Part shown: piece by piece, positions 5,188-41,388 of the stretch
Layout: each line of letters starts with the position of its first letter
Position numbering within the stretch: the first letter of the stretch is position 1
From: Alistipes sp.
GTDB lineage: Bacteria > Bacteroidota > Bacteroidia > Bacteroidales > Rikenellaceae
DNA length: 41,388 bases
NCBI GenBank assembly: GCA_017630455.1
Contig: JAGBVG010000026.1
Span: forward strand, 1 to 41,388
Direction: 5' to 3'
Translations under genes and position numbers: made by a program
Notes under the pieces: model-generated
Told to the model about the DNA's origin: nothing
The model's database searches: none
The model's input: only the letters and a program-made list of their open reading frames with translations

Positions 5188-8100
5188 TTATCTCTTTGTT
5201 TCGTTGATAATTGCATCTACCTCCTCCATCTCACGAGCAATCGCAGGCTCTATCTCCGCCACTGGCTCTATGGGTCGCATCTTCTCCTGCAACCACTGGA
5301 ACGCGATAAAGAGCGATGGGACGAGGAACAGCAGGGCTATAGTACCGATGAGCATACCTCCCACAACGCCCGAACCGAGAGATGAGTTACCATTAGCACC
5401 CACGCCCGATGAGAACATCAGAGGAAGCATACCGAAGATCATCATAAGCACGGTCATAAGGATAGGACGCAGACGTGCGCGTGCCGCCGAGAGTGCCGCC
5501 TGCTTGAGACTCATACCTGCTGCGCGACGCTCCGAGGCGTACTCCGTGAGGAGAATGGCGGTCTTTGATAGGAGTCCGATAATCATAATCATACCAGTCT
5601 GGAGGTAGATGTTATTCTCGAGGCCCATCACACGTGCAAAGAGCAGACAACCGAAGAGTCCCGCAGGAACCGACAACAGCACGGCAAAAGGTATCAGATA
5701 GCTCTCGTAGAGTGCTGCAAGAAGCAGGTAGATGAGCAGGAAGCAGATGCCATATACGGCCACGGCATTGCTCGACGTGCTCTCCTCCTCGCGCGTAAGG
5801 TCGCTGAACTCGTAGGCGTAGCCGCGCGGAAGAACCTCGGCCGCAGTCTCCTTTATCGCGCGAATGGCATCGCCCGAGGAGTAACCCTCTGCAGCCTCGC
5901 CGTTTACGGCTATCGAGGTGTGCATATTGAAGCGGTTGAGGGTCTCGGGGCCGTATATCTTCGTAAGGGTTACGAATTGGCTTACAGGAGCCATCTCATT
6001 TCCTACGCGAACGTAGATGTTGTCCATCGACTCCACATCCTGACGATCCTTGGCATCTGCCTGAATCATAACGCGATATACCTTCGAGAATCGGTTTACG
6101 TTCGAGACATACTGACCTCCGTAGTAGCCTCCCACGGTTGCCAAAACCTCGGCTGGAGATATGCCCGCACGCTTGCACTTTGCAGCATCGACATCCACCA
6201 TATATTGTGGATAGTTGACGTTATAGGTGGTATATGCAAGACCAATTTCGGGACGCTGGTTGAGGGCTGCAAGGAACGATGTGGTAACCTTGTAGAACTC
6301 TGTGATATCGCTGCCGTTGAGGTCCTGGAGGTGCATCGAGAAGCCGCTGGCAGTACCATATCCCGAGATCATAGGTGGCACGATGGCGATAACCTGCGCA
6401 TCCTTAATGTCGCTGCACATCGCCATAACCTGCTGGCTCAGATAGAGAACGTTGTCGCTATCTTCGGGACGCTCCTCCCAATCCTTCATACGCAGAATCA
6501 TAGTTCCGTAAGATGAACCCTGGCCCGAGATGATACCATAGCCCGAAATCTTACAGTAGGTGTTGATCTGTGGCAGGGTGCTGATACGGTCGCTGACAAG
6601 CTCCATAACCTTATTCGTCTGCTCGAGTGTTGAGCCAGGTGCGGTGGTTACGTTCACCATAATAGTTCCCTGGTCCTCCGAAGGCACGAGGCCTGTCTTG
6701 GTGGTGGAGAAGAGCACTACCATAGCTGCAACCGAGAGTGCCAATACGCCCCACATAGCCACTGGACGCTTAATGAAGAAGTATGCGCCACGCTGATACT
6801 TTGTAAGTATGGCGTCGAACGTGGTGTCGAAGGCCTTTTTGAATCGCTCGCCAAAGCCCCTCTTCTCCTTATGCTCGTCGTGAGGCTTCAGCATCAGCGC
6901 ACACAACGCTGGCGACAGGGTGAGGGCGTTGATACCCGAGATACCTACGGCAATGGCCATAGTGATACCGAACTGGGTATAGAAGATTCCCGATGTGCCG
7001 CCCATCATCGCAACGGGGAGGAACACCGCCATAAATACAAGTGTCGAGGTTACGATAGCCGAGGAGATGCCCTGCATAGCATCCACCGAGGCTTGATATG
7101 CAGAGCGGTAGCCCGCTTCGAACTTCGCCTGCACTGCCTCCACGACAATCACAGCATCGTCAACCACAGTACCAATGGCAAGTACCAACGCAAAGAGCGT
7201 CAGCATATTAATCGAGAAGCCAAATATCGCAAGTACGGCAAACGTACCCACGAGTGACACGATAATCGAGATAAGCGGAATGATAGACGAGCGCACGCTC
7301 TGTAGGAAGATGAAGACCACCAAAATTACGAGGATGATAGCCTCGATAAGGGTCTTGATAACCTCGTGGATAGATGCGAAGAGGAACTCGTTGCTATCCA
7401 TAATCGTAAGGAACTCCACGTCGCGCGGAGCCATAGCCTGCTCCTCGGCAATCATCTTGTCTATCTCCTTGATGATCTCCGTGGCGTTGGAACCAGCGGT
7501 TTGGTATATCATCGCCACGACACCCGCAAGGCCATTCACCTCGCTGGTATAAGCGTAGGTCTCGTTGCCAAACTCCACAGTCGCAACATCCTTGAGTCGC
7601 AAAACCTCTCCCGTAGGTAGCGATTTGATCACTATCTGGTCGAACTCCTCAGGTGTAACCTTGCGGCCGCGGTAGCGCATCGTGTATTGGAACGTACCTC
7701 CAGAGTTCTCACCGAGATTACCCGTTGAGGACTCGATGTTCTGCTCGGCAAGGATAGTGGTGATGTCGGCGGGGATAAGCGAGTGCTGCGCCATAGCCGC
7801 GGGGTTGAGCCAGATGCGCATCGAGTACTTAGAGCCGAGTGTCATACACTCTCCTACGCCGCTGATACGCAGGAGTTTAGGCTGAATGTTATTTACGAAG
7901 TAGTTGGCAAGGAATGCCTCGTCGTATGTGCCGTTTGGTGATGAGATACCGAGAGCCTTGATAATCGAAGTCTGCTTCTTTGCGGTCTGCACACCCACCT
8001 TCGAGACCTCGGCAGGAAGTACGGCTGTGGCACGTGTAACGCGGTTCTGCACATTTACCGCCGCCATATCTGGGTCGGTACCCTGCTTGAAGAATACAGA

Positions 8101-8373
8101 GATGGTGACATTACCGGTGTTGGATGCTGTGGAGGTCATATAGGTCATATCCTCCACACCGTTAATCTGCTCCTCGAGAGGCGCAATAACCGACTTCTGG
8201 ATGGTCTCGGCCGAGGCGCCAGGATAGGATGTCGTAACGTTGATGGTCGGCGGTGCGATGGTCGGGAACTGCTCAATCGGCAGGGATAGAAGACCGATGA
8301 TGCCGGCAAACATAATCGCCAGCGAGATCACGGTCGAGAGTACAGGACGGTCTATAAATCGTTTTAAATTCAT
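5188..8373 (-). CDS. RND multidrug efflux pump, AcrB/HAE1 family permease
   Basis: 1061 residues, normal for HAE1-type RND pumps. The N-terminus has the typical F-I-x-R-P-V-x-S membrane entry and L-P-I-E-Q-F-P segment. The proton-relay aspartates are the pair Asp405-Asp406 in V-D-D-A-V-I-V-V-E, and the conserved lysine is Lys937 in G-L-L-S-K-T-A-I-L. Two large periplasmic loops and 12 membrane helices are consistent with the family. It sits one base after the adaptor gene and 5 nt before the channel gene. It should export hydrophobic compounds (bile acids, drugs or detergents are usual substrates) using the proton gradient; the actual substrate cannot be read from sequence. Confidence 0.96.
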   Translation of the reverse strand: MNLKRFIDRPVLSTVISLAIMFAGIIGLLSLPIEQFPTIAPPTINVTTSYPGASAETIQKSVIAPLEEQINGVEDMTYMTSTASNTGNVTISVFFKQGTDPDMAAVNVQNRVTRATAVLPAEVSKVGVQTAKKQTSIIKALGISSPNGTYDEAFLANYFVNNIQPKLLRISGVGECMTLGSKYSMRIWLNPAAMAQHSLIPADITTILAEQNIESSTGNLGENSGGTFQYTMRYRGRKVTPEEFDQIVIKSLPTGEVLRLKDVATVEFGNETYAYTSEVNGLAGVVAMIYQTAGSNATEIIKEIDKMIAEEQAMAPRDVEFLTIMDSNEFLFASIHEVIKTLIEAIILVILVVFIFLQSVRSSIIPLISIIVSLVGTFAVLAIFGFSINMLTLFALVLAIGTVVDDAVIVVEAVQAKFEAGYRSAYQASVDAMQGISSAIVTSTLVFMAVFLPVAMMGGTSGIFYTQFGITMAIAVGISGINALTLSPALCALMLKPHDEHKEKRGFGERFKKAFDTTFDAILTKYQRGAYFFIKRPVAMWGVLALSVAAMVVLFSTTKTGLVPSEDQGTIMVNVTTAPGSTLEQTNKVMELVSDRISTLPQINTYCKISGYGIISGQGSSYGTMILRMKDWEERPEDSDNVLYLSQQVMAMCSDIKDAQVIAIVPPMISGYGTASGFSMHLQDLNGSDITEFYKVTTSFLAALNQRPEIGLAYTTYNVNYPQYMVDVDAAKCKRAGISPAEVLATVGGYYGGQYVSNVNRFSKVYRVMIQADAKDRQDVESMDNIYVRVGNEMAPVSQFVTLTKIYGPETLNRFNMHTSIAVNGEAAEGYSSGDAIRAIKETAAEVLPRGYAYEFSDLTREEESTSSNAVAVYGICFLLIYLLLAALYESYLIPFAVLLSVPAGLFGCLLFARVMGLENNIYLQTGMIMIIGLLSKTAILLTEYASERRAAGMSLKQAALSAARARLRPILMTVLMMIFGMLPLMFSSGVGANGNSSLGSGVVGGMLIGTIALLFLVPSLFIAFQWLQEKMRPIEPVAEIEPAIAREMEEVDAIINETKR

Positions 8374-8374
8374 A

Positions 8375-9508
8375 CTACTGCTGCTCGGTTACGGTTGTTA
8401 TCTGCTCATTATCTGCGCCTTTAAGTTGCACTGGAGTGCCCTCGCGGAGCATTGCCACACCCTCGGTGATGATGATGTCGCCAGCCTCGAGACCCTCGCG
8501 GACGATGTAGTTTGTGCCATCGTATTTGCTCACCTTGATAATCTTCGATGTAGCTTTGCCATCCTCGCTCTGGTACACGTATGTCTTATCCTGCACCTCG
8601 TATGTCGCGATGCAAGGTATCACGATACAATCCTTCTCGATGTAGCGCAAGACAATCTCTCCCGAGCTGCCGCTATGGAGTAGACGGCCTGGATTAGGGA
8701 ACACGGCGCGTAGTGATATAGAGCCTGTCTGCTGGTCGATCACGCCACTTACCGACTCGATAACACCCTGATGCTCATACATCGAACCATCGCTGAGACT
8801 TAGCTCTGGGTGAGGCATAGCCTTTATCGCAGCATCCATAGATCCGTGCTGGCGGGTGAGCTTCAAGAGCTGGCTCTCGTTCATTGCGAAGTAGACGTAC
8901 ATCTCCGAGTTGTCAGACACGGTGGTCAGTGGCTGTGGAATGGTAGGACCTACAAGTGCACCTACGCGGTAGGGGATAGTGCCCACAACGCCACTTGACG
9001 GAGCTTTGACAACGGTGTAGCCAAGGCTGTTCTTCGCGTTTGTATGTTGTGCTATAGCCTGAGCAAGTGTAGCCTCGGCAGAGAGAAGCTGGTTCTCGGC
9101 GAGGTGCAACTCATACTCCGAGATTACGTTACGCGCGTAGAGCTCGCGTTTGCTCTCGAGGGTCAATGTTGCTATCGACACCCCAGCTTTTGCTGCCTTA
9201 ACATTCGCCTCGGCAGTCTCGAGAGCCGCCTGATATGGCACCTGGTCTATGATGAAGAGCGTTGCACCCTTCTTGACACTCTGGCCCTCGGTGACACAAA
9301 CCTTCGATATTGTACCGCTTACCTGTGGCATAATGTTTATATCCTGACGGCCACGAATCGACGCCGAGAAGCGGCTCTCCACCTCGGTGTCGGCGGTAGT
9401 CACCTCCATAAAGTCGTATGACGCAACAGGTTGAACTTTTGGGGCCTCGTTGCACGATGAGGCGAGAAGAAGCGATAGGGTAGCACTGTAGATGATTGCT
9501 CTCTTCAT
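8375..9508 (-). CDS. RND efflux periplasmic adaptor (AcrA/MFP family) lipoprotein
   Basis: 377 residues. A lipoprotein signal ends at Cys19 (A-S-S-C). The typical order follows: beta-barrel start, biotinyl-lipoyl half (G-T-I-S-K-V-x-V-x-E-G-Q-x-V-K-K-G), alpha-helical hairpin at about 90-150, second lipoyl half (V-V-K-A-P-x-S-G-V-V-G) and C-terminal membrane-proximal barrel. It is the first gene of the efflux operon. It links the inner-membrane pump to the outer-membrane channel. A consensus promoter lies upstream with a leader of roughly 160-170 nt; no regulator gene is adjacent. Confidence 0.95.
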   Translation of the reverse strand: MKRAIIYSATLSLLLASSCNEAPKVQPVASYDFMEVTTADTEVESRFSASIRGRQDINIMPQVSGTISKVCVTEGQSVKKGATLFIIDQVPYQAALETAEANVKAAKAGVSIATLTLESKRELYARNVISEYELHLAENQLLSAEATLAQAIAQHTNAKNSLGYTVVKAPSSGVVGTIPYRVGALVGPTIPQPLTTVSDNSEMYVYFAMNESQLLKLTRQHGSMDAAIKAMPHPELSLSDGSMYEHQGVIESVSGVIDQQTGSISLRAVFPNPGRLLHSGSSGEIVLRYIEKDCIVIPCIATYEVQDKTYVYQSEDGKATSKIIKVSKYDGTNYIVREGLEAGDIIITEGVAMLREGTPVQLKGADNEQITTVTEQQ

Positions 9509-9683
9509 ATCTTATGTTGGTTTCTAAAGAATTATTAAATGCCTTTTCATCTTCGGGCAGGATTTTAATCTGTAGCAGATTGGGTTATTTCTGGCTCGTG
9601 GTGAGCCCTAACAACCTTTGCGACACATATTTGTACACCTCCCCTTTGTTGATAAATGGATAATTATATATTATTATTGGCTA

Positions 9684-9713
9684 CAAAGTTATAATTTTTT
9701 TGCAAAAAATCAA
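9684..9713 (-). promoter_or_regulatory. Promoter of efflux operon
   Basis: On the minus strand TTG (9711-9713), 19 nt, then TAACTTTG (9684-9691), matching the Bacteroidetes sigma-ABfr consensus. It lies about 175 nt upstream of the adaptor ATG. Confidence 0.6.
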
Positions 9714-9774
9714 TAATGCTTATAAATTAATGTGGCGCGTGGGATGAGATTTCTCCGTTTTTATGATTGTTAAG

Positions 9775-9805
9775 TTTGATTTTTAGGAAAAAAGCACTAT
9801 ATTTG
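9775..9805 (+). promoter_or_regulatory. Promoter of 9860 lipoprotein operon
   Basis: TTTG (9775-9778), 19 nt, then TATATTTG (9798-9805), a full match to the Bacteroidetes housekeeping promoter, 54 nt before the start codon. Confidence 0.75.
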
Positions 9806-9859
9806 TGTTACTATTAAGGCGTTACCAGCTTTGAGAAAATAATTCAAAATTTTACATAT

Positions 9860-12259
9860 ATGAAATGGTATGGTTATGCGTTCCGCTGCATCGTAGTGGT
9901 GTGCGCAGTTGTAAGCGTAGCTTGTGTCGACAAGAGCTATGACCTAAAGGATGTCTCTACTGAGGTGACACTCGGACAGGGAAAGACAGTTGTGAAGATC
10001 GGCGAGTTGAAACCTAAGAGAGTTGCCGACATTTTGGGCGATCAGAAGATCGACGGACTTACGATGAATGAGGACGGCACGTTTACGTTGAGCCTCTCGG
10101 GCGAGGGTGATCCTATCGAGGTGGAGAATATCCAAAACAGATTCACCGTCCCTGGAACTACCAATACGTTCCAGGTGGAGTATCCGTCGTTTGACTTCGA
10201 TATGAAGGGTATTGTCATTGAGGAAAAGCAGGATATTGTTGTAAATACTGAGGAGTTGGAGCAGTTAGGGGAGTTGTTAGGCGGCCAGTTCGAACTTCCA
10301 GAGTCGGCAGTGGAAAAGGTGTCAAATAATCTCAAGGGAAGCTTCTCAAAGAGCTTCAATGGTGATGATATGCACCTGCTTCTGGATCTTCCTGAGCAGG
10401 TGGATAACATCCGTCGCATCTCGTTCAAGGATATAGAGGATGGTCATTACGGCGCGCCGTTGCACCTTACGCTCGACCTCAATGGCTTGGCGGGTATCAA
10501 TGGTGGCGGAGTGATAAACTTTAACCTCTCGCTCAGTGGCGGTACATTCCGAATCCTCGATGCTAAGAATAATCTTCTTTGCGAGGGAAATGAGTATTCG
10601 AAAGAATATAATGTGGATCCGGGTGTCAAGACCATCGACTTCGTGATCTATGTCGAGAGCCTCGAGAACACCGCGGCGTTGAACGACGAGCATCAGCTTG
10701 ATATTCCTCTTGAGCTCAGCTGCGATATGAGTTTCGATATTAAGCCTAAGGGTGGTAAGTTCAACCTCGAGGAGAAGCCTCATTTCGCACTGTCTGCAGA
10801 TTTTGAGTATGGTGATGCAGAGATAGTTATGAACAACAACGCATCGTTGGTGGAGTATCATCCTACTGAGCCTCAGAAGATTAAGATTCAGAATCTTCCA
10901 AAGGAGTTGAAGAGCGTCAGCTGCATCGACCTCGTGGAGGGTACTGCTATTAACTTCTACGCCAATGGTCTCGAGTGGTTGGGCGAAAATGCCGATAAGG
11001 TGGCTGTAGAGGTGGATTTGCCAGAGTATCTTATGCTTCACGCAATCAGCGGCGAGGGATATGTTTACGATGAGGAGACACATAAACTCTCAACAACAAT
11101 TGCAGATATCAACGACGGCGTGGTGCTGAATGTTGAGTGTATCGACTTCGGCGCTGAGGGTATCTCTCCGGACGAGAATGGCGAGATTGTCCTCGACCTT
11201 GCATTCGATATGAGTGCTCACTTTGTTGGTGATGACAGTATTACGGTGTCGTCACTCGAGCACGATGAGGACCTTGAGATCACAACAGGTGTGTTGGATA
11301 TGGAGCTTACGGTGAAGGCATTGACAGGATGTGTCGACTATCAGTATACTCTCGAGAAGGAGTTAGCTGTAAATGGTGGTGAGGAGCTTGAGGCTGTTGA
11401 GATTAATGGCGTGGGACTCTCGCCAGTTATAACTCTCAATCTCGAGAACCCTCTTACCCTGCCGCTTATGGCTAAGGGTGCGCTTACGGATGATACTGGT
11501 CGAGAGATAGAGCTTAACGACATTGTTATCAATGCTGCGACATACGCCGATGGTGATATTATCGCGGCCCAGAATAAGATTGTTATCGCAGCGGAGAAGC
11601 CTGAGTATGAGTGTACATTTGTTAAGGTAGATTTCGATGAGCTGCTCAAGGGTAAGATTCCATCTATGATGAAGGTGAACCTCACCATTTCGGTGGACTC
11701 TACCGAGGAGCACACGCTCTATATCGATGATCAGATCGGTATCTCTTATGACTATAGTGTGGAGCTTCCTGTGGCGTTTACCGATAAGCTCGATATCCGT
11801 TCTAAGTATAGCTTTGATGATCTCGGAAAGGTTTTCGGCGGCTTTGGTGATATCGATATCAAGGTGGGTGACATTAAGCTTATCGCCGAGGTGGAGAATA
11901 CCCTCCCTCTTGGCTTTATGACCAAGATTGTGCTTCGCAACGCGGATGGTGAGCCTACAAGTGTTCAGCTTGTGGCTGGCCAGAGCGAGGATGGCTGGTT
12001 TACAATCAAAGGCTCGGAGGATGGTAAGACCCCTGCGAAGGATAATGTCGCAGTGTTCGATGTGCAGTTTGACGAGCATAACCTCTCGGAGATTACCGAG
12101 GTTGAGAGCCTCGATATAGAGTTGAGAGCTGTCAGCTCTTCGGCCGAGGGTGAGAGTGTTAGCATCAACGCTAATCAGTATGTAGCTGTAGTCTTTAAGT
12201 TCCAGCTCGAGAATGGTATTAGCCTCGATATCAAGGATTTTATGGCGGATGTAAAATAA
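9860..12259 (+). CDS. Large beta-rich exported protein, probable lipoprotein, unknown function
   Basis: 799 residues; I do not recognise a named domain. The N-terminus has a hydrophobic segment ending at Cys22 (V-S-V-A-C), a slightly atypical lipobox, followed by Asp-rich sequence. The rest is acidic, beta-strand rich and very poor in cysteine, with several segments that look like repeated Ig-like or jelly-roll modules (repeated patterns of L-S-G-G-x-F, S-C-D-M-S-F-D-I and D-L-A-F-D-M-S). A promoter lies directly upstream and a barrel-protein gene starts 20 nt downstream, so the two are probably co-transcribed and may form a surface complex; this pairing is inference. Confidence 0.7.
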   Translation: MKWYGYAFRCIVVVCAVVSVACVDKSYDLKDVSTEVTLGQGKTVVKIGELKPKRVADILGDQKIDGLTMNEDGTFTLSLSGEGDPIEVENIQNRFTVPGTTNTFQVEYPSFDFDMKGIVIEEKQDIVVNTEELEQLGELLGGQFELPESAVEKVSNNLKGSFSKSFNGDDMHLLLDLPEQVDNIRRISFKDIEDGHYGAPLHLTLDLNGLAGINGGGVINFNLSLSGGTFRILDAKNNLLCEGNEYSKEYNVDPGVKTIDFVIYVESLENTAALNDEHQLDIPLELSCDMSFDIKPKGGKFNLEEKPHFALSADFEYGDAEIVMNNNASLVEYHPTEPQKIKIQNLPKELKSVSCIDLVEGTAINFYANGLEWLGENADKVAVEVDLPEYLMLHAISGEGYVYDEETHKLSTTIADINDGVVLNVECIDFGAEGISPDENGEIVLDLAFDMSAHFVGDDSITVSSLEHDEDLEITTGVLDMELTVKALTGCVDYQYTLEKELAVNGGEELEAVEINGVGLSPVITLNLENPLTLPLMAKGALTDDTGREIELNDIVINAATYADGDIIAAQNKIVIAAEKPEYECTFVKVDFDELLKGKIPSMMKVNLTISVDSTEEHTLYIDDQIGISYDYSVELPVAFTDKLDIRSKYSFDDLGKVFGGFGDIDIKVGDIKLIAEVENTLPLGFMTKIVLRNADGEPTSVQLVAGQSEDGWFTIKGSEDGKTPAKDNVAVFDVQFDEHNLSEITEVESLDIELRAVSSSAEGESVSINANQYVAVVFKFQLENGISLDIKDFMADVK

Positions 12260-24539: not shown

Positions 24540-25445
24540 TTATTCGTTATCCCCCGAACGTGGATGTGCCGTGCGATAGATATCCTTAAGTTTCTCAATA
24601 TCTGTGTGGGTATAAACCTGTGTGGCGCGTAGCGACTCGTGCCCCAGCAACTCCTGAATCTCGCGAAGATCGGCACCCTGATTCAGTAGATGTGTGGCAA
24701 AGGTGTGGCGTAGGACGTGTGGCGAGGTTCTGCCGACGACACCCGCATCCTTGAGGATCTTATCAATCACGCGCTCTATGGTGCGGTGGCTGAGACGCTC
24801 GCCACGCTCCGATACGAAGAGCGGATGTGTGTCATAATTCGAGGTGGGTATGAGGCGCAGATATCTCTCGATGATGGGCTTGAGACCCTTGATAAGCGGC
24901 TGGATGCGTATCTTGTTTCCCTTGCCTCGGATGCGTATTGCGCTGAAATCTGCAGCTATGTCATCGACATTTGCCCCCGCAACCTCCGAGAGGCGCAACC
25001 CCGAGGTGTAGATGAGCAGCACGATGACGGCATTGCGCATTGGCAGAAACTCTTCCGAATCGATAGCCTCCTTCATATCGCTCAGGATCTCGTCTATGCG
25101 CGTATCTGGGACAAAGGTGGGCAGGCGTTTGGGTGACTTGAATTGCGATATCTTCTTCAGTTCGTTGCTCTTGGCATATCCACTCTGCACCATCCACCGC
25201 GCCAGTGAGCGCAGCGACGATACACTACGGTTTACGCTCAGGGCCTTGAGGTTACGCTCCTCGAAGAGGTGTAGCGTCCAATCCCTCACCGCATCACTTG
25301 TCAGATCCTCGGCACTGAACTCCTCGGCGCTTATCTCGCGCCACGCCAGGAAATCCTCTATGTCGCGTCTATAGTTACGGACGGTCAGAGGCGAGTAGCG
25401 ACGCTCCCCCTCAAGCCACGCGATAAAGTCGTCAACAAGAGTCAT
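24540..25445 (-). CDS. xerC: Tyrosine recombinase XerC/XerD
   Basis: 301 residues, the normal Xer length. The SAM-like core-binding domain covers about 1-90 and the catalytic domain about 105-295. The catalytic set is complete: Arg151 (S-G-L-R-L-S-E), Lys175, His243 and Arg246 (H-V-L-R-H), His269 (L-L-G-H-E) and Tyr278 (Q-V-Y-T-H). It resolves chromosome dimers at dif. The housekeeping context (lspA upstream, hpf downstream) argues against a mobile-element integrase. It starts 20 nt after lspA, so they are probably one transcript. Confidence 0.93.
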   Translation of the reverse strand: MTLVDDFIAWLEGERRYSPLTVRNYRRDIEDFLAWREISAEEFSAEDLTSDAVRDWTLHLFEERNLKALSVNRSVSSLRSLARWMVQSGYAKSNELKKISQFKSPKRLPTFVPDTRIDEILSDMKEAIDSEEFLPMRNAVIVLLIYTSGLRLSEVAGANVDDIAADFSAIRIRGKGNKIRIQPLIKGLKPIIERYLRLIPTSNYDTHPLFVSERGERLSHRTIERVIDKILKDAGVVGRTSPHVLRHTFATHLLNQGADLREIQELLGHESLRATQVYTHTDIEKLKDIYRTAHPRSGDNE

Positions 25446-33585: not shown

Positions 33586-34278
33586 ATGATTTACTCACAC
33601 GAAGTTCAGCAGATGTGCTGCGTGAAGAAGGGTGCTAACCACGAGTCGGCACCTATCCCAGAGGAGGGAAAATGGGTACGCGCAAAGGAGATTAAGGATA
33701 TCTCTGGTCTTACCCACGGTATTGGCTGGTGCGCACCACAGCAGGGCGCTTGTAAGCTTACACTCAACGTTAAGGACGGTATCATCGAGGAGGCACTCGT
33801 AGAGACAATCGGTTGCTCTGGTATGACTCACTCTGCAGCGATGGCTTCGGAGATTCTCCCAGGCAAGACTATCCTCGAGGCTTTGAACACCGACCTCGTA
33901 TGTGACGCTATCAACACCGCTATGCGCGAGTTGTTCAAGCAGATTGTTTACGGTCGTACACAGTCAGCATTCTCTGAGGGTGGCCTCGTAATCGGCGCAT
34001 CTTTGGAGGATCTTGGTAAGGGTCTCCGCTCACAGGTAGGTACTATGTTCGGTACTAACGCTAAGGGTACTCGCTACCTCGAGATGGCTGAGGGTTACTG
34101 CACACGTATGGCTCTCGACGCTAACGATGAGGTTATCGGCTACGAGTTCGTACACCTTGGCAAGATGATGGACTTCATCAAGAAGGGCATCGAGCCAGCA
34201 GAGGCATTGGAGAAGGCAAAGGGCTCATACGGTCGCTTCAACGATGCTGTTAAGTATATCGATCCTCGTCACGAGTAA
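33586..34278 (+). CDS. NifU-like iron-sulfur cluster scaffold protein
   Basis: 230 residues. The C-x6-C segment at Cys49/Cys56 followed by L-T-L-N-V-K-D-G-I-I-E-E-A, then G-C-S-G-M at Cys77 and L-P-G-K-T-I-L-E-A-L, matches the IscU/NifU N-terminal scaffold fold. The third ligand cysteine of IscU is not at its usual place, and extra cysteines (Cys11, Cys12, Cys106) are present. The C-terminal ~100 residues are not part of the standard scaffold. It precedes the GGGtGRT gene by 34 nt, and this gene pair is known from many anaerobes. Codons are strongly biased, suggesting high expression. Confidence 0.85.
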   Translation: MIYSHEVQQMCCVKKGANHESAPIPEEGKWVRAKEIKDISGLTHGIGWCAPQQGACKLTLNVKDGIIEEALVETIGCSGMTHSAAMASEILPGKTILEALNTDLVCDAINTAMRELFKQIVYGRTQSAFSEGGLVIGASLEDLGKGLRSQVGTMFGTNAKGTRYLEMAEGYCTRMALDANDEVIGYEFVHLGKMMDFIKKGIEPAEALEKAKGSYGRFNDAVKYIDPRHE

Positions 34279-34312: not shown

Positions 34313-35311
34313 ATGGCATTATTTGAGAGCTACGAGCGCAGAATCGAGAAGATCAACGCTGTGCTTGCACAATATGGTATTCAGTCAATTGAGGAGGCTA
34401 AGGCTATCTGCGACCAGAAGGGTATCGATCCATACAAGATGTGTGAGGAGACTCAGCCTATCTGCTTCGAGAACGCTAAGTGGGCTTACGTTGTAGGTGC
34501 TGCTATCGCTATCAAGAAGGGCTGCACAAACGCTGCTGACGCTGCCGAGGCTATCGGTGAGGGTCTTCAGGCATTCTGTATCAATGGTTCTGTAGCTGAG
34601 GACCGTAAGGTAGGTATCGGCCACGGTAACCTCGCAGCACGTCTTCTCCGCGAGGAGACACAGTGCTTCGCATTCCTCGCAGGTCACGAGTCTTTCGCTG
34701 CTGCTGAGGGCGCTATCAAGATCGCAGAGATGGCTAACCGCGTACGTAAGAACCCATTGCGCGTTATCCTTAACGGTCTCGGTAAGGACGCTGCAAAGAT
34801 TATCTCACGTATCAACGGCTTTACATACGTTCGTACAGAGTTCGACTACTACACAGGTGAGGTACACGAGGTAGAGACTATCTCTTACTCTGAGGGTCTT
34901 CGCTCAAAGGTACGTTGCTACGGTGTAGACGATGTTCGCGAGGGTGTAGCAGTAATGTGGAAGGAGGACGTAGACGTATCTATCACTGGTAACTCTACAA
35001 ACCCTACCCGTTTCCAGCACCCTGTAGCAGGTACATACAAGAAGGAGCGTACCCTCGCTGGTAAGAAGTACTTCTCAGTAGCATCAGGTGGTGGTACTGG
35101 CCGTACTCTTCACCCAGATAATATGGGTGCAGGTCCTGCATCATACGGTATGACCGACACAATGGGTCGTATGCACTCTGACGCACAGTTTGCAGGTTCT
35201 TCATCAGTTCCAGCACACGTTGAGATGATGGGTTTCTTGGGTATGGGTAACAACCCAATGGTAGGTGCAACTGTAGCTATTGCAGTAGCTATCCAGCAGG
35301 CAATGAACTAA
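34313..35311 (+). CDS. GGGtGRT family protein
   Basis: 332 residues. The family signature G-G-G-T-G-R-T is at 259-265, followed by L-H-P-D-N-M-G-A-G-P. Cysteines at 33, 44, 51, 71, 89, 118 and 202 could hold a metal or cluster. The family is conserved in anaerobes but has no assigned reaction; the linkage to a NifU-like scaffold suggests that it receives or handles Fe-S clusters, which is inference. Lysine codons are essentially all AAG and glycine is mostly GGT, indicating high expression. The 3' end and terminator are duplicated at about 40004-40106. Confidence 0.93.
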   Translation: MALFESYERRIEKINAVLAQYGIQSIEEAKAICDQKGIDPYKMCEETQPICFENAKWAYVVGAAIAIKKGCTNAADAAEAIGEGLQAFCINGSVAEDRKVGIGHGNLAARLLREETQCFAFLAGHESFAAAEGAIKIAEMANRVRKNPLRVILNGLGKDAAKIISRINGFTYVRTEFDYYTGEVHEVETISYSEGLRSKVRCYGVDDVREGVAVMWKEDVDVSITGNSTNPTRFQHPVAGTYKKERTLAGKKYFSVASGGGTGRTLHPDNMGAGPASYGMTDTMGRMHSDAQFAGSSSVPAHVEMMGFLGMGNNPMVGATVAIAVAIQQAMN

Positions 35312-35345
35312 TCAACTGATTGGTTTATAATACATTGAAAGGAGC
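35276..35345 (+). repeat. Left copy of 70-bp direct repeat (GGGtGRT 3' end)
   Basis: These 70 bases, covering the last 11 codons, the stop and 34 nt after it, are identical to 40013-40082. Similarity extends through the terminator hairpin on the right and for about 10 bp on the left. Confidence 0.95.
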
Positions 35346-35369
35346 TGACCTTCGGGTTTGCTCCTTTTT
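35338..35369 (+). terminator. GGGtGRT terminator
   Basis: An 8-bp stem AAAGGAGC/GCTCCTTT (35338-35345 with 35360-35367) with an inner ACC-TTCG-GGT part, followed by T. Confidence 0.88.
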
Positions 35370-35539
35370 GTATGTTGATATGTGAAGGCTGTTTGGAGGT
35401 TATGTTTGGACTATATTTAGGAACTATTAGGGGCGATATAATGTTGAGATAGCAGTTTGTGCACAGAATGAGTTAAGATGTGATATTGAGCTTCTAAATG
35501 GCCTTTATTTGGGCATTGACGCACTCGTTATGCACCCGA

Positions 35540-35559
35540 AAGTAACTGTAACATTACTT
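35540..35559. promoter_or_regulatory. Possible operator upstream of BspA-like promoter
   Basis: AAGTAA and TTACTT form a perfect 6-bp inverted repeat with an 8-nt spacer, and GTAAC is also directly repeated inside. It ends 20 nt before the -33 box. No regulator is assigned. Confidence 0.3.
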
Positions 35560-35579
35560 CTGTTTTAGTGTGAACTAAA

Positions 35580-35611
35580 TTTGTGTGAAGAGAAAAATAT
35601 TACTATCTTTG
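35580..35611 (+). promoter_or_regulatory. Promoter of BspA-like gene
   Basis: TTTG (35580-35583), 20 nt, then TATCTTTG (35604-35611), leaving a leader of about 105 nt. Confidence 0.7.
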
Positions 35612-35722
35612 CATTAAGATAATAACTTGCTGAAAGTGCTTGTTTATTCTCAAATAAGTTTTTAGCTATCAAGGTGCTGGATAATAAAATTACGACGCAA
35701 ACAAATAATTTAAATATACACT

Positions 35723-38700
35723 ATGAAAAAACTATTTTCAATTTTAGTGTTGATGAGCCTCTTTTTCGCATCGTGCGATACAGAGGGTGTTAATGAGCCT
35801 TCTAATGACGTCCAAAATGGTGATGGCGAGAAGATTGCTACTATCGAGGAGCAGATGTCTGCTATTGAGAACTCAATCCCGGAGTTAAGGGATGTTGTTG
35901 ATAAGGCAAATGACCTTGTCGATGATATGGAGTCGACCACTCGTAGCGATGATAACGGCAATAATGGCGTAAAGACACTGATTGCCGAACTCGAGGAGCG
36001 TATTGCCGCACTTGAGGAGTATATCAATGGTGGAGGCTCGGGCGAGTGGACAGATACCACCTACGCCACAATGGAGATGTACGAGGAAACCGTTGCCGTT
36101 CTCGCATCATTGCAGGCTGAGATTGAGGTTCTTAAAGAGCAGTATAATGCTCTCTGTGGTGCGGTTTCAGATGCTATCGACGAGAGTGTAGACTCAATGA
36201 AATCGTGGGTTAACGAACTTCTTTCGGGTTACTACGACATCGCCACTATTGATGCTATGTTTGCCTCGATATTGGGGGACCTTACATCCGCAGATGCTGA
36301 GATTATTGCCGAGATAGAGTCACTTCGCAACAAACTTGACGAAGAACTTGCATCTATGCACAAGGCGTATAATGATGCTATTAAGAGCGCTATCGAGGAG
36401 AATAACGGAGTATTAAACGAGAAGCTTACAAGTGAGATAAAGAAGGTTAATGACCGCATAGACGAGGAGATAGTAACTCTTAATCAGCGTTTGGATGATA
36501 TCGAGGATCGTCTAACAGAGTTGGAAGGCTCTGTGAGTGACTTGCTAAAGCGTATACAGTCTGTTGCTTATCTGCCTATCTATGAGGATGGCAAGGCTCG
36601 TGTTACCTTCCCTAATGACGATACATCGGGTGCAACATTGCAACTCGACTTTATGATATCACCTAAGGATGCTGCGGTGGATCTCGCTAATGTTTACCAG
36701 GAGGCTGTTAGTGTGCAGGTGCTTTATACCGGCTCACCTCTTATGACGGCTATGCCTATAATATCGTGTGAGGCTGTAGCTACACAGGGTTTGTTCTCGG
36801 TGATATGTGCTTGTGATGATATAAGTATGGAGTTCTACAATGGTGATATCACTGCCCGTGCTATTATGTATATCTCGGATGGCAATAACGACCTTACATC
36901 GGAGTATATAACCATCGTCCCCAACCGCACACAGATTCAAAACAACCAAATATGGTATAACGTAAGCAATAAACTACCTGTTGAGATAAATCAGGGTAGT
37001 GGTCCACGTATTGTATCTAACGAATACGATTCGGTGGCAGGACACTACGTTGTAACTTTCGAGTCAGATATCTACGCTATCCCTGCATCCTATTTCGGTG
37101 GTTGTAGCGAACTTACAAGTGTAGTGCTACCTAATTGCGTAATGACTATTGAGGCAGAGGCCTTTGCTAATTGTTATAGCCTTAGATCTATTACGCTATC
37201 TAACTCACTCTCTTATATCGACTCGTGCGCCTTCGCCGGTGCTTTCCTAATTTCATTGACTCTCCCATCTTCGCTATCGGGTGTTGCCCCAGATGCCTTC
37301 CTATACTCTAACATCTCGCGTCTTGAGGGTGATTGTGTTGCTGATGATGGCATAAGTTTGATATTCGACAATACTCTTGTTGCTATTGCCCATGCTAGAC
37401 TTGATAGTGAGTATGTTGTTCCTGCTAAAGCCACTGCTATTGGCGACGCTGTATTTAATAAGTGCTACGACCTTTCACATATCGATATTCACGATAATGT
37501 GACATCTATTGGCAATGAGGCATTTAGCAATTGTGCAAGCCTTAGCAATATTTCCATCCCTGATGGTGTTAAGAGTATTGGTAGCGAGGCGTTTAGCGGT
37601 TGTAGTAATCTCTCAACTATTACTATTGGTGCAGGCGTTACCTCTATTGCCGATGGTCTATTTAGCAATCTCGGCAAACTAACCGACATTACAATCGGTA
37701 GTGGCGTAACAACAATCGGCTCTCGTGCATTTAGCAATTGTACAAGCCTTAGCAATATTTCCATCCCTGATGGTGTTAAGAGTATTGGTAGCGAGGCGTT
37801 TAGCGGTTGTAGTAACCTTTCAACTATTGCTATAGGTGCAGGTCTTACCACTATTACCGATGGTCTATTTAGCAATCTTGGCAAACTAACCGACATAACA
37901 ATCGGTAGTGGTGTAACAACTATCGGCTCTCGTGCATTTAGCAATTGTACAAGCCTTAGCAATATCACCATCCCTGATGGTGTTGAGAGCCTTGGTAACG
38001 AGGTGTTTAGCGGTTGTAGTAATCTCTCAACTATTACTATTGGTGCAGGCGTTACCTCTATTGCCGATGATCTATTTAGCAATCTCGGCAAACTAACCGA
38101 CATTACAATCGGTAGTGGTGTAACAACTATCGGCTCTCGTGCATTTAAGAATTGTACAAGCCTTAGCAATATTTCCATCCCTGATGGTGTTGAGAGTCTT
38201 GGTAACGAGGTGTTTAGCGGTTGTAGTGCGTTACAGAGCATCAAGATAGGTGCAAATGTAGAGAGCATCAATCGCGGTATGTTTAGTGGTTGTGATAGTA
38301 TTAAGGAGTTTAGTGGTAAGTTTGCATCGGAGGATGGATATGCCCTTATCCATAATAGCAATCTTATGGTATTTGCCAAGGCTTGTGGTATTGAGGAGTA
38401 CACTATACCAGAGTATGTTACAAATATTGTGATGCGTGTATTTGAAAATTGCTCTGATATCTCACTCTTTACATTTAAGTCAACTACGCCTCCAACACTT
38501 GGCGCACATGTATTTAGGGGTATAGATAATCTTCAAATCAGTGTTCCTATTGAGTCCGTTGAAGCATACCTTACTTGCAATTGGCCAAACGAATATCGCC
38601 GTGCTATTATCGAACTTGCTGATATCAACAATATCCCCGATAGTTGCCGATTGAATTATACCACTTATGATAACCAAAAACTCGATGTATATCCCGAGGA

Positions 38701-39808
38701 CGGTTATAATGTTTTGTCGCACACCTATGCTGATGGCCATGGTGTGGTAGTATTTTTAGAACCCCTAACTACAATTGGAGAGGGGGCATTCTATGGCTGC
38801 GATAGCCTAACAAGTGTAACTATCCCCGATAGTGTAACAACGATTGGAAATTATGCATTCTATGGTTGCAGTAGCCTAACAAGTGTAACTATCCCCGATA
38901 GTGTAACTTCAATTGGAGATTGTGCATTCTTGGAGTGTCATAGCCTAACAAGTGTCAATATTCCAGATAGTGTAACTTCAATTGGAGAGAGGGCGTTCTC
39001 TTGTTGCAGTAGACTAACAAGTGTCACTATCCCTGATGGCGTAACTACGATTGGAGATTCTGCATTCGAATATTGCTCTAGCCTCACAAGTGTAACTATT
39101 GGAGATAGTGTAACTTCAATTGCAGATTATGCATTCTGGGAGTGTCATAGCCTAACAAGTGTAACTATCCCCGATAGTGTAACTTCAATTGGAGATTGTG
39201 CATTCCATAGTTGCAGGAGTCTAACAAGTGTCACTATCCCCAATAGTGTAACTATAATTGGAGAGTATGCATTCTATGGTTGCAAAAGCCTAACAAGTAT
39301 AACTATTTCAGATAGTGTAACTACAATTGGAGAGTATGCATTCTATATGTGCAAAAGCCTAACAAGTATAACCATTCCCGATAGTGTAACATCGATTGGA
39401 AATCACGCATTCTATGGTTGCGAAAGCCTAACAAGTATAACTATTCCAGATAGCGTAACTACAATTGGAGATTCTGCATTCGAGTATTGCCCTAGCCTCA
39501 CAAGTGTAACTATCCCCGATAGTGTAACAACAATTGGAGAGTATGCATTCGCTTTTTGCTCAAGCCTAACAAGTGTAACTATCCCCGATAGTGTAACATC
39601 GATTGGATATGCTGCATTCTATTATTGCGGAAGCCTCACAAGTATATATTGTGAGGCTATAGTACCTCCAGCATTGGTCGGAACCTTTGTTTTTGACGAT
39701 AACGGCAGTGGTCGCAAGATTTATGTACCTACTGAGTCCGTTGATGCATATAAGAGTGCAGTACATTGGAGTGAGTACGCTTCAGATATTGTTGGCTACG
39801 ATTTTTAG
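35723..39808 (+). CDS. BspA-like leucine-rich-repeat (LRR_5) surface lipoprotein
   Basis: 1361 residues. A lipoprotein signal ends at Cys18 (F-F-A-S-C). Residues about 30-285 are coiled coil with a short Gly/Ser break near 110. A beta region ([16 protein letters not shown]) follows. Two LRR_5 modules come next: module 1 at about 460-962 and module 2 at about 966-1361. Both start with a similar strand pattern and end in a cap of the form P-P-x-L...V-P-x-E-S-V-x-A-Y...W-x-x-Y. LRR units are 23 residues. BspA proteins of Bacteroidetes bind fibronectin or other host or bacterial surfaces; this role is inferred. It is a single-gene unit with promoter and terminator. Confidence 0.93.
37523..38281 (+). 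repeat. 207-bp higher-order LRR repeat
   Basis: Three complete 207-bp units (37523-37729, 37730-37936, 37937-38143) and a partial fourth. Each encodes three distinct 23-residue LRRs in a fixed order (types starting F-S-N-C, F-S-G-C and F-S-N-L). Units are nearly identical in DNA. Confidence 0.92.
38789..39616 (+). repeat. Twelve 69-bp LRR repeats without indels
   Basis: Twelve consecutive 23-codon units in perfect phase, from the Phe codon at 38789 to the next at 39617. Most share C-T-A-A-C-A-A-G-T and G-A-T-A-G-T-G-T-A-A-C blocks, while the residues between vary. Confidence 0.93.
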
Positions 39809-39833
39809 TCTTTAACAACTTTTGATTTTCGAT

Positions 39834-39869
39834 ATCTGCCGAGCGGCAACCCACTCGGCAGATGTTTTT
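39834..39869 (+). terminator. Terminator of BspA-like gene
   Basis: A perfect 10-bp stem (39834-39843 with 39854-39863) with a 10-nt loop, followed by G and T5. Confidence 0.92.
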
Positions 39870-40003
39870 ATATACGGATGTAAGACGCCGCAAAACCTCC
39901 AATACACTTCTGCCCACAAACATCTTTATCCTTTAGAGAAAGGATCGAAATATAACATACAATCACAGCTTTATTGAGTATCTCTCATAATTATTTTGAA
40001 ACA

Positions 40004-40048
40004 GCTATTGTTGCTATTGCAGTAGCTATCCAGCAGGCAATGAACTAA
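40004..40048 (+). pseudogene. Truncated copy of the GGGtGRT gene 3' end
   Basis: In frame the sequence reads T-A-I-V-A-I-A-V-A-I-Q-Q-A-M-N-stop, the last residues of the GGGtGRT protein with one or two changes at the left edge. Upstream of about 40004 the similarity ends, so this is a fragment and not a gene. Confidence 0.85.
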
Positions 40049-40082
40049 TCAACTGATTGGTTTATAATACATTGAAAGGAGC
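40013..40082 (+). repeat. Right copy of 70-bp direct repeat
   Basis: Identical to 35276-35345; the start-to-start distance is 4737 bp. The pair flanks the whole BspA-like gene. Confidence 0.95.
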
Positions 40083-40106
40083 AGACCTTGCGGGCTTGCT
40101 CCTTTT
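40075..40106 (+). terminator. Duplicate of the GGGtGRT terminator
   Basis: Stem AAAGGAGC/GCTCCTTT (40075-40082 with 40098-40105). The loop differs from the left copy by a few bases, and T-runs follow. Confidence 0.75.
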
Positions 40107-40142
40107 GTTTTGTGGTGTTACACTGTGTGTAAATCTAACATA

Positions 40143-40658
40143 TCAGCTCTCCAAGATATCAATCATCAATCGACGCTCTATCTCCTTCTGAGAAGGGACA
40201 ATCTGATATACAAACGCTTCGGGACATCCCATCTCCAAGAATTTATCGATTATGTAGGAGCGAATAACTATCGCACGGATCTTCGACTCGTGTGCCCTGA
40301 AGGACTCGGGAACACAACATATAAGATCCTTAAAGTTTAGAGTCATCGACACAACCTCCTCCTCTGAGTAACCATACCTGCGACACTCTGATTCGATAGA
40401 TTCCAAAAGTAGTCCCAACATAACCTCAATGGATAGTTCGAAATCCTCCTCATCCCTACTGTGCCAAACCTTCTTAGTGAATAACATTCTGACATCTGTC
40501 GTCAGCTCATTAGATAGATGATACTCGCTTTGCACCTCATTTTCAAGGTAGTCCGAGAGTGCGATAAGCTTCTGCAGCGTAGCCTCAGATAACAATGTGG
40601 TGTCACTTAAGGTAAGTCTGTTCCACAAATCTCTGTTCAAGGTAAATAGATCTTTCAT
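40143..40658 (-). CDS. Unknown 171-residue protein next to sigma-54 activator
   Basis: 171 residues, acidic, mostly helical, no signal peptide or membrane segment, so probably cytoplasmic. I recognise no family. Leu-rich helices (L-S-E-A-T-L-Q-K-L-I-A-L-S-D-Y-L and S-I-E-V-M-L-G-L-L-L-E-S-I-E) suggest protein-protein contacts. It starts 52 nt after the stop of the sigma-54 activator gene on the same strand, so co-transcription is likely. No consensus promoter is apparent in the gap. Confidence 0.7.
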   Translation of the reverse strand: MKDLFTLNRDLWNRLTLSDTTLLSEATLQKLIALSDYLENEVQSEYHLSNELTTDVRMLFTKKVWHSRDEEDFELSIEVMLGLLLESIESECRRYGYSEEEVVSMTLNFKDLICCVPESFRAHESKIRAIVIRSYIIDKFLEMGCPEAFVYQIVPSQKEIERRLMIDILES

Positions 40659-40710: not shown

Positions 40711-41388
40711 TTAAGCATTGTAGTAGCATTGCACTGCGTCAGCAGTGATGCGATCATCACTTAAGATTATCAGTCGTTCGACGACATTGTGCAATTCTCG
40801 AATATTACCAGTCCAAGCACAATGCGAAAGAAGTTCGAGAGCCTCTGTATCGATATTCTTGATGCTTATCTTATGGCGGGCACATATCTCCGATATGAAG
40901 TGCTCTACCAGCAACTGAATATCGCCACAACGCTCACGCAATGGCGGAACATTGATCTCGATCACACTTAGGCGATGGTATAGATCTTCACGAAAATTAC
41001 CAAGACGAATCTCCTTGCGTAAATCCTTATTTGTTGCGGCAACAACACGCACATTCACGGGAATATCCCTATCACCACCAATGCGCATAATCTTATTCTC
41101 CTGCAACGCACGAAGCACCTTAGCTTGTGCCGACAGCGACATATCTCCTACCTCGTCGAGAAAGAGAGTACCTCCATCTGCAAGCTCGAATTTTCCTTTG
41201 CGCTGCTTTACGGCAGACGTAAACGATCCCTTCTCGTGTCCAAAAAGCTCACTCTCAATTAGCTCCGAGGGAATTGCAGCGCAGTTTACCTCGACAAATG
41301 GACCATTAGCACGATTGCTCTTTAGGTGTAACCATTGAGCGACAAGCTCCTTGCCCGTACCATTCTCGCCAAGGATTAGCACTCGAGC
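40711..41388 (-). CDS. Sigma-54 interacting AAA+ activator lacking C-terminal HTH (5' end outside window)
   Basis: 226 residues are visible and the frame runs off the window. It is the sigma-54 activator AAA+ domain: Walker A G-E-N-G-T-G-K-E, the sigma-54 loop as G-S-F-T-S-A (canonical G-A-F-T-G-A), Walker B G-G-T-L-F-L-D-E and the arginine-finger region F-R-E-D-L-Y-H-R-L. The sensor II segment G-N-I-R-E-L is present. The protein ends about 20 residues after the AAA+ lid, so the Fis-type helix-turn-helix usual at the C-terminus is missing. The N-terminal receiver or sensor domain, if any, is outside the window. Confidence 0.9.

Follow-up and report, generated by a model that had tools for sequence, protein, structure and literature searches.

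Islands arranged in tandem at the 3' end of a single gene, some with an integrase and some without, are already known (PMC3146451, PMC5704250). The relevant passages on Dehalococcoides describe genomic islands that lie in tandem at the 3' end of the ssrA gene, with a direct repeat of this end as the boundary of each; an integration module is present in 16 of these islands and absent from 15, the latter being termed possible cis-mobilizable elements (CIMEs; PMC3146451). In the sections dealing with such elements, a CIME is one that has lost the integration and transfer genes and kept both attachment (att) sites, attL and attR, and tandem accretion takes place at the end of the target gene (PMC5704250). 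The tyrosine integrases of the IntCTnDOT subgroup in Bacteroidetes are described as having an arm-binding domain, and NBU1 and NBU2 use the 3' ends of tRNA genes (PMC8138268, PMC5704250). The locus analysed here lies in Alistipes sp. (GCA_017630455.1, contig JAGBVG010000026.1, positions 1 to 41,388; this whole stretch of 41,388 nucleotides is called the window) and contains a gene of the GGGtGRT family followed by a BspA-type leucine-rich-repeat gene, which is enclosed by two copies of the GGGtGRT 3' end. With a probability of about 0.7, a clade of tyrosine integrases from Bacteroidales uses the GGGtGRT 3' end as its chromosomal attachment site, and the unit in the window is most likely an integrase-less, CIME-like derivative with the BspA gene as cargo.

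The connection between this 3' end and a particular group of integrases is seen with the integrase of genome G057 (genomes and loci are denoted by G and L numbers), which consists of the domains Arm-DNA-bind_5, SAM_5 and Phage_integrase. This protein was searched for in 180 genomes of the genus and 393 genomes of the order, and 60 of the matching loci (30 per search) were examined as DNA. All 7 loci with at least 49.7% identity have a copy of the GGGtGRT 3' end within 1.5 kb, compared with 0 of the 53 loci with 35.6–41.5% identity, some of whose flanks are shortened by contig ends. Among viral contigs, the same query yielded 11 loci: four with the 3' end upstream, four that start exactly at the integrase and three distant ones (29–37%). 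In the phage collection, all 81 records with an integrase match fall below 60% identity. In a midpoint-rooted tree of 80 sequences, the linked integrases belong to one clade (support 0.992) with no control inside, and the sole other members are the four viral loci that start at the integrase, where the upstream DNA is unreadable. The clade comprises 25 tips, three of which duplicate a locus already present, and several members were found via GGGtGRT itself, so that the association figures free of this selection are 7/7 and 4/4. A clade integrase stands beside a 3'-end copy in G057, G082, G058, G055, G035, G106 and G438; in G055, unlike at the other linked loci, integrase and remnant are on different strands. 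Judging from these sequences, the clade of Arm-DNA-bind_5 integrases appears to be tied to the GGGtGRT 3' end.

Complete elements are found in two genomes. In G057, the GGGtGRT gene is followed by the integrase, cargo and, 10.2 kb further, a remnant of the 3' end. The second, a whole 12.6-kb element, resides in the closed 3.44-Mb chromosome of G438, from another family of the order, where the gene is followed by the integrase (345 nt past the stop codon), a DGQHR/DndB-like protein (assigned through weak matches below the cut-off), DUF3871, a second tyrosine recombinase of 195 aa, other genes and the remnant. The two elements share DUF3871 (75% identity) and the second recombinase (82%), and no conjugation family was detected among the 9 of 13 G438 ORFs (open reading frames) scanned by Pfam. 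A plasmid collection contains 10 records with a GGGtGRT 3' end; in the one examined, from Phocaeicola massiliensis TSDC17.2-1.1 (OY725990.1), the gene is accompanied by a clade-like integrase fragment (67% identity to the G057 protein) and, 2.1 kb on, by a remnant that starts at aa 277.

The DNA that separates a 3' end from a clade integrase was inspected by eye in 11 regions, and 10 of them have direct repeats, accompanied by an inverted copy, that share the 11-bp period of the repeats in the window (below) but not their sequence; the repeats are GCGAC(C), GCTAC(C), GCAGCCC or GTGTGCA. In G438, the repeat is GCAGCCG. No such repeats were seen by eye in the G106 region. The 11-bp-period repeats are read as putative arm-type sites.

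The window has a left end of the same island type, that is, 3' end, terminator and 11-bp-period direct repeats. The 225 nt that follow the GGGtGRT stop codon in the window share 79–84% identity, over 216–230 nt, with sequences located at the GGGtGRT 3' ends of G017, G025, G089, G096, G123 and G132, and when partial matches are included, this block occurs in 17 of the 180 genomes of the genus, the source genome counted. In 15 of the 17, the block is situated at a 3' end of GGGtGRT, whether intact or a remnant, or a short way behind it, in some cases after DNA that resembles miniature inverted-repeat transposable elements (MITEs); the other two (G033, G092) are weak matches. At its end, the block has repeats of the GCACCC type that recur every 11 bp, and in the window one of them carries a mismatch. 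What comes behind the block differs from genome to genome: the BspA gene in the window, a WG-repeat protein and a 107-aa ORF in G017, two ORFs in G025 (the first without a Pfam family), and an extracytoplasmic function (ECF) sigma factor and a 197-aa ORF in G089. In G096 and G123, the contig stops soon after the block. In G091, a truncated integrase follows directly; in G132, a 402-aa LRR_5 gene comes first and a truncated integrase second; and in G119, where the block matches at 76% over 150 nt, AbiL-like AAA and RloB genes and other ORFs precede an integrase cut by the contig end. The integrase pieces of G091 and G132 are members of the clade, whereas the G119 piece is too short for the tree.

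The GGGtGRT gene was located across the genus with its last 59 residues as the query, and this C-terminus was matched in 88 of the 180 genomes. The gene is patchy, with no match in the other 92 genomes and in 34 of the 70 best-quality ones. The 3' flanks were taken from 67 genomes, including every genome with only a partial match to the 59 residues; very short remnants, like that in the window, would go unnoticed in the 21 matching genomes outside this set. By nucleotide comparison, 22 of the 67 genomes contain truncated 3' ends, 30 in all, that are preceded on the left by other DNA for more than 40 nt; five further truncated 3' ends at contig ends were excluded. The suggestion of the initial annotation, made from the window alone, that the GGGtGRT 3' end may be an integration hotspot is borne out by these remnants and the varied cargo. 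Material other than that of the window lies between two 3'-end copies, as that annotation anticipated for related genomes, in G096 (two lipoprotein-like ORFs, judged by sequence only), G089 (the ECF sigma factor and the 197-aa ORF), G123 (two unknown genes), G051 (an LRR_5 protein), G132 (an nSTAND and TIR/SIR2 pair) and G057 (the 10-kb integrase element). In G017 and G091, other cargo stands ahead of relatives of the 171-aa and sigma-54 activator genes that form the right flank in the window (Table 1). The annotation also anticipated an empty site, and G138 (L186) comes near to it: the intact gene is followed by about 200 bp of MITE-like DNA, the right flank of the window with the 171-aa, sigma-54 and HTH-like (helix-turn-helix) genes, and another remnant, with no BspA gene. 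Thus, the relatives do not share a single arrangement, and a vertical tandem duplication of the 3' end is ruled out by the differing content and the almost empty site.

Further cargo was noted at these sites. In G132, an nSTAND1 protein and a TIR/SIR2-domain protein (L178, 2367-7350) form a defence-like pair behind GGGtGRT, and in G119 the cargo consists of AAA (AbiLi/AriA-like) and RloB/AbiLii-like genes (L196, 1676-3732). In G055, a sulfatase, a radical-SAM/SPASM protein and a third sulfatase-looking gene are enclosed by two 3'-end remnants (L034, reversed, 6605-11018). A gene of family F3, HAD-hydrolase-like by its sequence start, is found 0.18 kb (G044) or 0.45 kb (G041) behind GGGtGRT, and a gene that looks like F3 is situated past two remnants in G131. 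At the GGGtGRT stop codon itself, MITE-like pieces of ~130–190 bp with terminal inverted repeats were recognized by eye in L186, L041, L201, L048, L206, L207 and L208; one type swaps the last residues of GGGtGRT, AMN, for SFAK and provides the stop. The notion that every differing post-stop sequence is an element end proved wrong, many of them being such insertions.

Within the window, the two copies of the GGGtGRT 3' end match exactly over 70 bp, a length far beyond chance, and lie 4737 bp apart on the plus strand, with the exact match extending no further on either side; these exact copies around a complete BspA-type gene had been reported in the initial annotation. When mismatches are allowed, the similarity of the copies extends over the terminator hairpin (96% over 98 bp; ungapped, 88% over 105 nt). 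A search of the source genome with 35200-35420 as the query matched at the two repeat copies only, and the repeats of at least 40 nt in the whole window comprise this pair and repeats internal to the BspA gene, nothing else. The BspA-type gene is the single complete ORF between the repeats and the sole long forward ORF in the interval. That the interval lacks an integrase, as likewise claimed earlier, agrees with a tblastn search with 80 integrase sequences, in which the best match had E=0.017 over 30 aa. Elsewhere in the window, a minus-strand ORF (24540-25445) with partial tblastn matches of 20–40% to integrases is likely a XerC/D-like recombinase.

The left copy had been taken as the true 3' end of the gene and the right one as a truncated remnant. 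The right copy, though truncated, has the appearance of the original 3' end after displacement. In G131, the right flank of the window is joined to a longer 3' end (108–114 nt), and the BspA-free junction predicted from the window is 97.8% identical to that in G131 over 729 nt. Because the junctions in G131 and G138 lack BspA, the older 3' end is probably that of the right copy, and the insertion probably brought or rebuilt the left one together with its terminator.

Table 1. Features of the window around the GGGtGRT 3' end and the BspA-type gene
Feature	Position	Strand	Basis or remark
NifU_N-like gene	33586..34278	+	upstream of GGGtGRT, same orientation; Pfam PF01592 barely above cut-off
GGGtGRT gene, 332 aa; 3' end is the putative integration target	34313..35311	+	Pfam PF14057, E=8e-192
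Left copy of the 70-bp exact repeat	35276..35345	+	33 coding nt, stop (TAA) and 34 nt of the terminator region
Terminator-like hairpin after the GGGtGRT gene, GGAGC..GCTCC then T run	35339..35371	+	by eye
Post-stop block, ~225 nt, read as the left end of the element	35312..35538	+	resembles DNA behind GGGtGRT 3' ends elsewhere, with differing cargo
Two arm-like direct repeats, GCACTC / GCACCC, 11-bp period	35521..35537	+	by eye; period as upstream of integrases
Possible promoter of the BspA gene, TTTG .. TATCTTTG	35580..35613	+	motif that we take to be of Bacteroidota type
BspA-type leucine-rich-repeat gene (cargo), 1361 aa, lipoprotein-like start	35723..39808	+	Pfam LRR_5, E=1e-232; LRR arrays D1 and D2
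Terminator-like hairpin of the BspA gene	39835..39870	+	by eye
Right copy of the 70-bp repeat, probable displaced original 3' end	40013..40082	+	in G131 (L185), this 3' end runs straight into the right flank
Terminator-like hairpin at the right copy, with sequence divergence relative to the left hairpin	40076..40108	+	sequence
Right-flank ORF, 171 aa, no Pfam or NCBIfam family	40143..40658	-	relatives in G131, G138, G017 and G091
Sigma-54 activator gene, incomplete at the window end	40711..41388	-	Pfam PF00158

Under integrase-mediated entry, an incoming circular element would bear its own copy of the GGGtGRT 3' end, with a terminator and arm-type repeats behind it. A crossover in the 3' end, for which we infer the catalytic step, would rebuild the gene at the left and leave the original 3' end as the right remnant, and arrays would be built by repeated events. 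The unit in the window (35312-40012) would have kept the left end and the right remnant and has no integrase or other mobility gene, with the BspA-type surface-protein gene as the only cargo. It is because a left end and a right remnant are present and mobility genes are absent that the unit is read as most likely CIME-like. Excision would presumably be possible only with an integrase acting in trans or through RecA on the 70-bp repeats.

Several observations weigh against this interpretation. The window unit contains neither a clade integrase nor a recognizable fragment of one, and the 8 integrase-like matches in the source genome have at most 43% identity to the compared integrases, none being located beside a 3'-end copy. 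The inverted arm repeat was not seen by eye in the block of the window, unlike beside other integrases. The remnant edge in the window, 37 nt before the stop codon, is unlike those of integrase-linked remnants, which mostly start 153–170 nt before it (G057, 161; G055, 158; G106, 153; G035, on a separate contig, 164; P. massiliensis, 170); in the viral loci L263, L264, L268 and L269, the remnants start at 161–164 nt, and by blastn edges, those of G438, L267 and L265 start at 184, 188 and 198 nt. Short integrase-linked remnants exist in G058 (87 nt) and L274 (89 nt). The remnants of G017 and G096 are 30 nt long, but together with the window this makes three edges at 30–37 nt, too few to mean much. 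Over all edges, the clustering is only modest: the 30 remnants represent 26 distinct left flanks, 8 of which fall in a 22-nt window (reached in 2073 of 20000 simulations, p ~0.10) and 5 in a 4-nt window (273 of 20000, p ~0.014). When the outer pieces of split copies are added, a choice made post hoc, the corresponding counts are 6 (18-nt window), 40 (22-nt) and 709 (8-nt) of 20000. The count left out the five copies at contig edges, minus-strand hits, pieces short of the stop codon and copies of at least 250 nt, and one counted remnant (G014, 227 nt) near a contig start may be a broken gene. Furthermore, the 3'-most windows of 51 GGGtGRT genes are not phylogenetically shuffled (rank correlation 0.77, compared with 0.59–0.71 upstream), and therefore any 3' ends carried by elements would have to move chiefly between close relatives. 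Finally, the repeat copies agree throughout the 34 non-coding nt, which is compatible with homologous recombination as well.

An extensive exchange of 3' ends across species was considered and dropped, the distance correlation along the 51 genes having shown none. The remnants themselves give a mixed result: most are not nearest to the gene of their own genome, which ranks 35, 5, 2, 17, 6, 1, 3, 14, 9 and 2 of 51, with two rows, G051 and G126 (distance 0.48, inserted piece), left out of the ranking. The split copies are remnants in L038, L188, L203 and L185 that are interrupted ~100–114 nt before the stop codon by a 60–67-bp insert, with the flanking pieces overlapping briefly. Directly to the left of remnants with a 158–160-nt edge, genes of serine-resolvase type occur in three genomes (L182, 2054-2701; L034, 11844-12623; L178, 8232-8555; oriented coordinates), an assignment made by Pfam for the L182 gene only; these genes may stand for another type of recombinase at the right end.

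Among the alternatives, the one that fares best, at somewhat less than even odds, is a narrower form of the preferred explanation, namely a decayed element frozen in place, with the integrase deleted after entry, the BspA gene added there later and the unit immobile today. The truncated integrases behind the block in G091 and G132 and the G119 integrase interrupted by the end of its contig are compatible with such decay, as is the presence of LRR_5 genes at this position in G132 and G051. This scenario is hard to tell from a CIME-like derivative that entered with its cargo, and the repeats are still identical over 70 bp.

Entry by RecA-dependent homologous recombination is unlikely but accommodates much of the contrary evidence. 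A single crossover would have inserted a circle carrying the BspA gene and the GGGtGRT 3' end of a relative, and the array position would be set by homology rather than by an integrase; the 70 identical bp that include non-coding DNA, the varied remnant edges, the unshuffled 3' ends and a unit without an integrase would all be in keeping with it. Left unexplained are the common 225-nt left end with its arm-like repeats before different cargo and the existence of an integrase clade tied to the GGGtGRT 3' end. Moreover, 70 bp is short for RecA, which also counts against such a route.

Still less probable is that the BspA gene itself is mobile and settles behind gene 3' ends in general. Genes for LRR_5 proteins directly follow GGGtGRT in the window and G051 (558 aa), and in G132 such a gene (402 aa) follows a remnant; G126 has the remnant spacing of G051 and a GGGtGRT gene identical over the compared parts. 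The closest relatives of the N-terminal 426 aa of the window protein within the genus (62–72%) are at three other loci, in G131, G011 and G025, which would suit a mobile gene. In G011 (contig C17, L251, reversed, 6807-11392), the homolog comes after tRNA-Met(CAT) and between direct repeats of 91 bp (94.5% identity) that begin in the last 4 nt of the tRNA gene, so that, by its sequence, this locus appears to be a second instance of the window layout at another site. Further partial repeats at this locus hint at two nested units. However, this is the one clear second case, and the relatives are too diverged for recent copies; the G131 contig ends inside the BspA gene, and that of G025 ends 145 nt past it, with no repeat found.

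An assembly artefact that joined two strains at the repeat is highly improbable: the source genome (G000, in which the window is contig C13) is a 2.0-Mb metagenome-assembled genome (MAG) of 93 contigs with 7% estimated contamination, and contigs of several relatives break inside the GGGtGRT 3' end, but both halves of the locus recur in other genomes, and a like layout exists in the closed genome G438.

If the GGGtGRT 3' end is indeed an attachment site, it serves as such in several groups of Bacteroidales, namely the source genus (close relatives of the source genome carry the label Alistipes sp. and come from herbivore guts), a Dysgonamonadaceae MAG, G438 and Phocaeicola massiliensis, and it has an integrase clade of its own. 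This yields a rule by which gut bacteria can be searched for islands with genes for adhesins, sulfatases and defence-like functions, and integration at GGGtGRT may account for assemblies that break at this gene. In Bacteroides thetaiotaomicron, the pair of NifU and GGGtGRT genes (BT0173-74) is listed at -11 to -12.8 in the table of the iron-dependent stimulon (PMC10434189). In the published literature, no report was found that names GGGtGRT as an integration site or describes an integrase clade devoted to it; subscription papers were mostly outside this scope, so that absence from print is not established.

Compared with known systems, the GGGtGRT-linked clade resembles the IntCTnDOT subgroup, as far as the sections on the latter describe it, in consisting of arm-binding tyrosine integrases, the comparison being one of Pfam domains only, and differs in its link to a protein-coding gene. 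As to the cassette arrays of integrons, which are marked by attC sites and an IntI integrase, the repeat unit in the window is a gene 3' end with a terminator, and one long forward ORF lies between the copies. It is conceivable, though doubtful, that this 3' end acts as an open cassette platform, on which cargo-only units (adhesins, sigma factors, defence genes) with a 3' end, a terminator and arm sites would be swapped in trans by passing integrases of the clade, giving integron-like arrays on the tail of a protein gene. In staphylococci, arrays at the 3' end of the protein gene orfX/rlmH, including cargo-only units, are formed by SCC (staphylococcal cassette chromosome) elements, which use serine recombinases. 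The window unit differs from a CIME in that its right edge is unlike that of most integrase-linked remnants and that any kinship of the GGGtGRT elements to a conjugative or mobilizable element would be conjectural; with respect to att sites, there are the 70-bp repeats and the arm-like repeats, the right edge being short and any core for this type of left end conjectural. The likeness to a CIME lies in a unit without integration or transfer genes, in which BspA is the only long forward ORF, located at a target-gene 3' end that is used by related integrase-bearing elements. The closest parallel are the ssrA islands of Dehalococcoides, which, in the passages describing them, also form tandem 3'-end islands with and without an integrase; there, the target is a tmRNA gene and the recombinase a serine recombinase of the CcrB family, whereas the GGGtGRT islands combine a protein-coding target with tyrosine integrases.

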